Shown here one piece after another: positions 20,526-61,459 of a stretch of DNA of 64,000 nucleotides (position 1 is its first letter; each line of letters begins with the position of its first letter). This DNA comes from Nannobrachium achirus. Its lineage: Eukaryota; Chordata; Actinopteri; Myctophiformes; Myctophidae. The translations under genes were made by a program, and so were the position numbers. The DNA is taken from the NCBI GenBank assembly GCA_963921795.1, contig OY997656.1, positions 56,789,839-56,853,838 on the forward strand. Direction: 5' to 3'. The notes under the pieces were generated by a model. That model saw nothing but the letters and a program-made list of their open reading frames with translations, was not told where the DNA came from and did not search any database.

Positions 20526-20562
20526 CCAATCTGATGAGGTGGATCTTTCAAACATGGACATT
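20526..20562 (+). CDS. Gene B first visible exon, possible start codon
   Basis: 37 bases between TTCTAG and GTGAGT, ending in phase 0 as the caspase exon at 22575 requires. It reads QSDEVDLSNMDI. The ATG at 20554-20556 has A at -3 and G at +4, so it may be the translation start (giving MDI then DDQ); otherwise an upstream exon must end in phase 2. It does not match the phase of gene A exons, which argues for a separate gene. Confidence 0.5.

Positions 20563-61459: not shown

Follow-up and report, generated by a model that had tools for sequence, protein, structure and literature searches.

A candidate NLRP1/CARD8-type locus with tandem caspase-8-like domains and MIB/HERC2 domains upstream of a FIIND in Nannobrachium achirus

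The window, a 64,000 nucleotide stretch of DNA from Nannobrachium achirus (C19:56789839-56853838), lies within a genome of 1.66 Gb. The original prediction of nineteen exons on one strand, with AG/GT borders and matching phases, was reproduced when the exons were rebuilt at that place: they sum to 3295 nt, contain no stop, have compatible phases and show AG/GT at all borders, and the earlier end points (20526, 33474, 34128, 41528, 44628, 50006 and 61459) agree with the rebuilt exons. The open reading chain follows a single frame path and is unbroken from two caspase units through linker exons to MIB/HERC2 domains. The exons are given below together with those of an upstream FIIND gene (FIIND2), a helical exon (H) and the exons that follow outside the window (window positions unless marked C19).

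7875-7924 and 8005-8057, + strand: FIIND2 linker exons, in phase and with no stop
8385-8614, 9959-10221, 10532-10663 and 10774-10915, + strand: FIIND2 ZU5-UPA exons of the upstream FIIND gene, likewise in phase and with no stop, at 85.8 bits for FIIND and 54.8 bits for UPA-FIIND in Pfam
19581-19839, + strand: helical exon H, CARD-like by context only; its phase fits 10915 before it and the exon at 20526 after it
20526-20562, + strand: exon X, first of the nineteen, with ATG GAC ATT as a possible start
22575-22674, + strand: exon A of caspase unit 1 (A1), first strand
29494-30016, + strand: exon B of caspase unit 1 (B1), which retains His (SHG) and has Ser in place of the catalytic Cys (EASQG)
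31342-31597, + strand: exon C of caspase unit 1 (C1), internal type with a tail, its donor reading into an in-frame TAA at 31604-31606
32091-32199, + strand: exon A of caspase unit 2 (A2)
32387-32978, + strand: exon B of caspase unit 2 (B2), His replaced by Tyr (SYG), Cys by Ser (EASQG)
33273-33474, + strand: exon C of caspase unit 2 (C2), internal type
34050-34128, + strand: orphan exon A3, with an in-frame deletion of the core strand, phase 0 to phase 1
41528-41796, + strand: linker exon E8, with a 21-bp repeat (SSGYGTK)
41964-42012, + strand: linker exon E9, acidic
42095-42160, + strand: linker exon E10
42610-42737, + strand: linker exon E11
44583-44628, + strand: linker exon E12, acidic
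50006-50097 and 51896-52211, + strand: MIB/HERC2 domain 1 with a low-complexity tail
55236-55315 and 55408-55627, + strand: MIB/HERC2 domain 2
56769-56819, + strand: linker exon E10b, the MIB block sitting between E12 and this exon
61380-61459, + strand: exon Z, last of the nineteen, leading in phase to linker exons, FIIND3 and a CARD-like exon outside the window
C19:56857334-56863669: linker exons and FIIND3, continuing in phase from Z (L015)
C19:56866592-56866935: CARD-like exon with a stop, in phase (L016)

Past 61459, eight further in-phase exons in the adjoining genome reach a FIIND (ZU5-UPA), and the ninth, also in phase, is the CARD-like exon with a stop. From exon H to the last UPA exon, 28 exons read through 1504 aa with no stop or frame shift, and the CARD-like exon is the 29th in-phase exon counted from H. 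The chain assembled from the ATG scored 323.9 bits for caspase, 104.4 for FIIND, 93.8 for MIB_HERC2 and 55.0 for UPA-FIIND in Pfam, all above cut-off, the FIIND with its ZU5 and UPA parts being presumably joined to the window exons. Since the chain runs beyond the window into a FIIND and a CARD-like exon, the layout described earlier is the N-terminal part only. The earlier proposal of one scaffold protein holds as far as a single open chain from caspase through linker to MIB/HERC2 is concerned, but that chain continues to a FIIND, and a single transcript is presumed. Long gaps separate A1 from B1 (6.8 kb), A3 from E8 (7.4 kb), E12 from the first MIB exon (5.4 kb), E10b from Z (4.6 kb) and Z from the next exon (6.0 kb).

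Two full caspase-8-like units had been claimed, and the spliced units scored 172.4 and 167.1 bits against Peptidase_C14 (Pfam), for which the cut-off is 21.4; judged from these matches, both have a caspase fold domain. Among solved structures, unit 1 comes closest to human caspase-8 (E 8.8e-45). The catalytic motif is EASQG in both units versus QACQG in human caspase-8, and with the catalytic Cys gone from both they are predicted pseudo-caspases, which gives no basis for assigning them a proteolytic role. B1 and B2 share 94% identity across 404 bases, a little intron included, and the pair is the product of a tandem duplication. In a paralogue at C19:49.758 Mb the first unit retains SHG and QACQG, while the second is dead and ends in a normal stop; the loss of Cys is therefore not common to the whole family. 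The A1-B1 intron contains a LINE-like element (24480-27890, - strand, with reverse-transcriptase-like frames; identity by eye), and a perfect 37-bp tandem repeat in nine copies (30024-30357) directly follows the B1 donor. Across 6-21 kb, none of the three + strand frames gave a CARD match, though an intron-split or far-diverged CARD could escape.

What had been described as a partial third caspase unit is present as a caspase-type first exon, A3, but as a single exon only and with its core beta strand absent; chromosome 10 (C10) carries an undeleted 35-aa version. The caspase units are of phase 0-0 and the linker and MIB sets of phase 1-1, and A3 leads from phase 0 at its start to phase 1 at its end. 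It is exactly the adaptor required by a fused gene, whereas two separate genes would have no need of one.

The low-complexity linker of the original prediction consists of exons that are indeed present. Genome-wide, 66 E11-like matches were found at E up to 1, all of which were used in the counts, and 24 of them reach E 0.001 or better. For 25 of the 66, an F1-type FIIND lies on the same strand no more than 20 kb downstream, with none upstream and none on the opposite strand; among the strong matches (E 0.001 or better) the figure is 22 of 24. These counts took in 54 of 62 F1 matches, leaving out eight weak ones. The two strong exceptions are the window itself, with F1 at 28.9 kb, and C10, with a different type of FIIND 3.7 kb downstream. 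Because 18 of 151 FIIND matches had been picked by eye near other matches, the broader counts (35 of 66, and 21 of the top 22) are biased and were set aside; the F1-only counts are unaffected. Because 22 of the 24 strong E11 relatives precede an F1-type FIIND, the linker exons can be taken as FIIND-gene exons, and by this measure they are standard parts of FIIND genes. Chance open frames were ruled out as an explanation of E8-E12, since E11 recurs ahead of FIIND exons. At two other loci E11 is succeeded by an acidic exon, one like E10 and a short exon rich in Cys, with the F1 match after them, and the same linker parts as in these loci occur in the window. Beyond the window, an acidic exon, an E10-like exon, a Cys-rich exon and one more exon are followed by ZU5 and UPA exons (L015). 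An array of about 105-bp units, highly self-complementary, occupies 43112-43763.

The two MIB/HERC2 domains of the original prediction were recovered at 54.7 and 55.6 bits after splicing, against a Pfam cut-off of 33.5 bits. Their second exons alone score 22.7 and 25.6 bits; as the cut-off is exceeded only with both exons joined, there is good support for the intron within each domain. The nearest solved chains are MIB1 4XI6 and HECTD1 2DK3. Linker exons flank the block on both sides, and E12 and E10 are close neighbours at the linker-FIIND loci L041 and L043; L043 matches the window at 44486-44661 and again at 56719-56823 (E 8.4e-13), with both MIB/HERC2 domains filling the gap. It seems from these alignments that an ancestral E12-E10 stretch was split when the MIB block entered the linker array, and because the block splits that stretch, MIB appears to lie inside the FIIND gene. 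MIB-MIB followed by FIIND was also found at C19:44.43 Mb. A role of the MIB exons as the opening of a MIB-caspase gene was rejected, as tblastn gave no match to a window caspase exon in the 60 kb downstream, where FIIND exons lie instead. The earlier link to ubiquitin ligases comes down to the MIB/HERC2 domain itself: no RING, HECT or RLD was matched in the three + strand frames of the window, in which intron-split domains could escape, and no RING or HECT in the three + strand frames of L016. At C2:20.93-21.24 Mb, MIB/HERC2 exons form a cluster in which most share a strand, with no caspase or FIIND nearby among the matches listed.

FIIND3 matches the NLRP1 chain 7CRW (E 4.9e-11), which we take to be rat NLRP1, as well as NLRP1 6X6C and CARD8 7JKQ. 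His, Glu and Ser of 7CRW, presumably the self-cleaving FIIND triad, are in register in FIIND3, with SLS for SFS, and FIIND2 has Cys where FIIND3 has the triad Ser (by eye). From the aligned residues, FIIND3 might be able to cleave itself. The CARD-like exon scored 18.5 bits against the Pfam CARD (E 0.0021), below the cut-off of 23.9. Exons of this kind occur downstream of 8 of 54 F1 matches, with none upstream or on the opposite strand, when the best 52 of 150 CARD-like matches were used; these 52 are the best-scoring plus one lower (C14:56253553). Neither NACHT nor LRR was matched in the three + strand frames of the window.

Part of the arrangement is repeated on C10, where a C exon, A3, E8, E9, E10 and E11 succeed one another, all bordered by AG/GT and with open frames, and where exon lengths differ from those of the window by multiples of three only. 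Unlike FIIND3, the FIIND of C10 is of a long type read in a single frame. Between C10 and the window, A3 and E8-E11 have a nonsynonymous/synonymous ratio of 1.16 (28.8 of 333 versus 6.2 of 84 sites, p 0.83), and purifying selection on these exons is thus unsupported. A conserved first exon between A3 and E8 was rejected, as the matches there look repeat-like, though a 62-bp C10/window match that holds an ATG (repeat-like by eye) keeps it conceivable.

At the 5′ end of the chain, the ATG of exon X has A at -3 and G at +4. Exon H runs into an immediate stop if its donor is unused. It was rejected as a plain CARD, since Pfam gave no match and no CARD in the PDB matched it by sequence. A paralogue of H (84%) was found at C7:68604830, between a CARD exon (57.4 bits) and FIIND exons; the gene at C7:68.603-68.607 Mb (L036) has the order CARD, H, X, a small exon and FIIND. 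X-like exons precede FIIND on C7 and in L021 left of the window. As H and X recur in the C7 FIIND gene and an X-like exon stands before FIIND left of the window, the caspase part may have acquired its first exons from a FIIND gene.

Taken together, the exon chain suggests that the window is the N-terminal part of one large NLRP1/CARD8-type gene, a reading to which we give about an even chance. Its order would be X, perhaps preceded by H, two pseudo-caspase-8 units, A3, linkers, two MIB/HERC2 domains, linkers, FIIND (ZU5-UPA) and a CARD-like end.

A serious, though less likely, alternative is that there are two adjacent genes on the same strand, a tandem pseudo-caspase-8 gene followed by a linker-MIB-MIB-linker-FIIND-CARD gene. 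The first would start at X (ATG in 20526-20562) or H and end at or after C2 or A3, the second would have a first exon that is unrecognised here, and both would have been copied to C10 and C19 in one block. A gene of MIB and tandem caspase domains that closes with a proper stop is found at another locus, C19:49.746-49.762 Mb (L031, L032), where a compact MIB-MIB-caspase-caspase arrangement has a last unit ending in RKKLVFSVFTN*; the real stop after the last caspase unit at C19:49.758 Mb means that caspase-end genes exist. In all, MIB/HERC2 lies upstream of caspase exons at three loci besides the window, this one among them (34 of 34 genome matches and the two window domains were counted), which indicates that modules are shuffled and that two adjacent genes are possible. 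In the window, AATAAA follows the stop directly behind the C1 donor, so that a transcript could end there early, yet the M2a donor (first exon of MIB/HERC2 domain 2) is trailed by the same letters and M2a must be spliced. Caspase precedes the linker exon E11 at only four loci, on the same strand (6 of 76 caspase matches, with none upstream or on the opposite strand; three second pieces of listed matches were dropped from 79), and most linker-FIIND loci have no caspase within 20 kb. The four are the window, C10 and, weakly, C18 (E11 at E 0.023) and C5 (E 0.79), whose caspase sequences are 42% identical to unit 1; the caspase-linker order may thus also hold at C18 and C5, though the E11 matches are weak. 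The 62-bp match with its ATG, present between A3 and E8 in both the window and C10, could favour a separate start for the second gene, but A3 and E8 are merely 1.8 kb apart on C10 and the window matches there are repeat-like (by eye). Moreover, E8 is not a first exon, having an acceptor in phase 1, and the orphan A3, which would be useless to two genes, is kept with both splice sites at two loci.

A relic is improbable, in which the caspase units alone or the entire chain would be a pseudogene decaying after tandem duplication and transposon insertion. Such decay is suggested by the LINE-like element (by eye) that parts A1 from B1, by the loss of the A3 core strand and of the catalytic Cys from both units, and by nonsynonymous changes being as frequent as synonymous ones in A3 and E8-E11. 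It is opposed by the 28 exons without a stop or frame shift, by AG/GT borders that are canonical throughout, and by the exon length differences in multiples of three between C10 and the window. The nonsynonymous/synonymous ratios of B1/B2 (0.61), A2/A3 (0.35) and M1b/M2b (0.48) also argue against it, yet those of A1/A3 (1.20), E9/E12 (1.87) and M1a/M2a (1.63), from few sites, exceed 1.

A still longer gene, in the order FIIND2, H, X, two caspase units, linkers, two MIB domains, FIIND and CARD, is very improbable. In its favour, FIIND2 and H fit together, the former closing its last UPA exon in phase 1 and the latter opening in that phase with no stop, and at C13:8.61 Mb and C21:5.24 Mb caspase exons have an F1-type FIIND 13 kb upstream. 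Against it, H and X are N-terminal in the C7 CARD-H-X-FIIND gene and so are more likely to open a gene than to follow UPA, and 8.7 kb separate FIIND2 from H. The FIIND upstream of caspase at C13 and C21, and FIIND2 here, mean that FIIND is not always 3′.

If the window does belong to one large NLRP1/CARD8-type gene, the known behaviour of NLRP1 and CARD8 offers a model. According to excerpts of the cited paper, the proteasome destroys the N-terminal fragment of these proteins and the CARD-containing C-terminal fragment is released, which FIIND self-cleavage enables (PMC7794386). By analogy, the FIIND would cut itself and the N-terminal part would stay bound and restrain the UPA-CARD piece; once the N-terminal part is lost, UPA-CARD would be freed and would recruit caspases. 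The dead caspase-8-like and MIB/HERC2 domains might then serve as bait or sensor, a disposable part. One transcript, self-cleavage and the bait role are what we infer for this locus. The likeness to NLRP1 and CARD8 consists in a FIIND built from ZU5 and UPA, with a CARD-like exon after it, and in the sequence match to 7CRW, 6X6C and 7JKQ. The locus differs from NLRP1 in that no NACHT or LRR was found in the + strand frames of the window, and from both proteins in that its N-terminal part consists of pseudo-caspase-8 and MIB/HERC2 and its CARD match is below cut-off.

Other parts of the chain also have known relatives. cFLIP(L) (CFLAR) is a dead caspase-8 paralogue with two DEDs and one pseudo-caspase domain; it resembles the units here in its dead caspase-8-like domain and is not known to carry MIB or FIIND. 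An excerpt of one paper mentions it as such a paralogue (PMC12198278). Teleost CARD-Casp8/casp20 and caspase-8 are alike in that, among solved structures, the caspase domain here is nearest to caspase-8; unlike CARD-Casp8/casp20, the locus has tandem domains in one chain, no catalytic Cys and no recognised CARD or DED just upstream. Local casp8 duplicates in fish are described in excerpts of earlier work (PMC1903365, PMC2779465, PMC5965869). Mammalian caspase-16 and coral caspase-X have, in the passages available from the sources, two caspase domains per protein with the first one dead (PMC12198278, PMC4715348); those proteins retain one domain with catalytic residues, whereas here both domains are without Cys and MIB and FIIND are added. 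With the ligases MIB1, HECTD1 and HERC2 the MIB/HERC2 domain is in common, but no RING or HECT was found here in the frames scanned. FIIND-CARD proteins, fish caspase-8 duplicates and tandem caspase proteins are thus each already known, as far as excerpts of the sources go (PMC9978379, PMC12436146, PMC1903365, PMC2779465, PMC5965869, PMC12198278, PMC4715348). The combined caspase-MIB-FIIND layout was not found in the open-access literature searched, a search that was not exhaustive.

A more specific proposal, which we put forward tentatively and regard as rather unlikely in full, is that of a FIIND-CARD inflammasome sensor with an integrated decoy. The two dead caspase-8-like and two MIB/HERC2 domains would act as bait for the proteases or ligases with which pathogens target caspase-8 or MIB proteins, and destruction of the bait would free UPA-CARD; N-terminal baits (caspase, MIB, perhaps others) would have been shuffled before a linker-FIIND-CARD cassette that exists dozens of times or more in this fish. 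If the exons form one chain, it would be a vertebrate tandem caspase-domain protein with both domains dead, and it would link caspase-8-like and FIIND biology in a single protein. NLRP1 and CARD8 detect attack through the loss of their N-terminal part. How sensors of this type evolve new triggers is an open question, which many linker-FIIND copies and exchangeable, phase-matched N-terminal modules would make testable.

An exon about 1.1 kb upstream of the C19:49.746-49.762 Mb locus is presumably PAK-kinase-like. The FIIND family of this genome is very large, with 410 first-look candidates, the best 150 of which were scored, and CARD-like exons gave 364 candidates, of which the best 150 were likewise scored.
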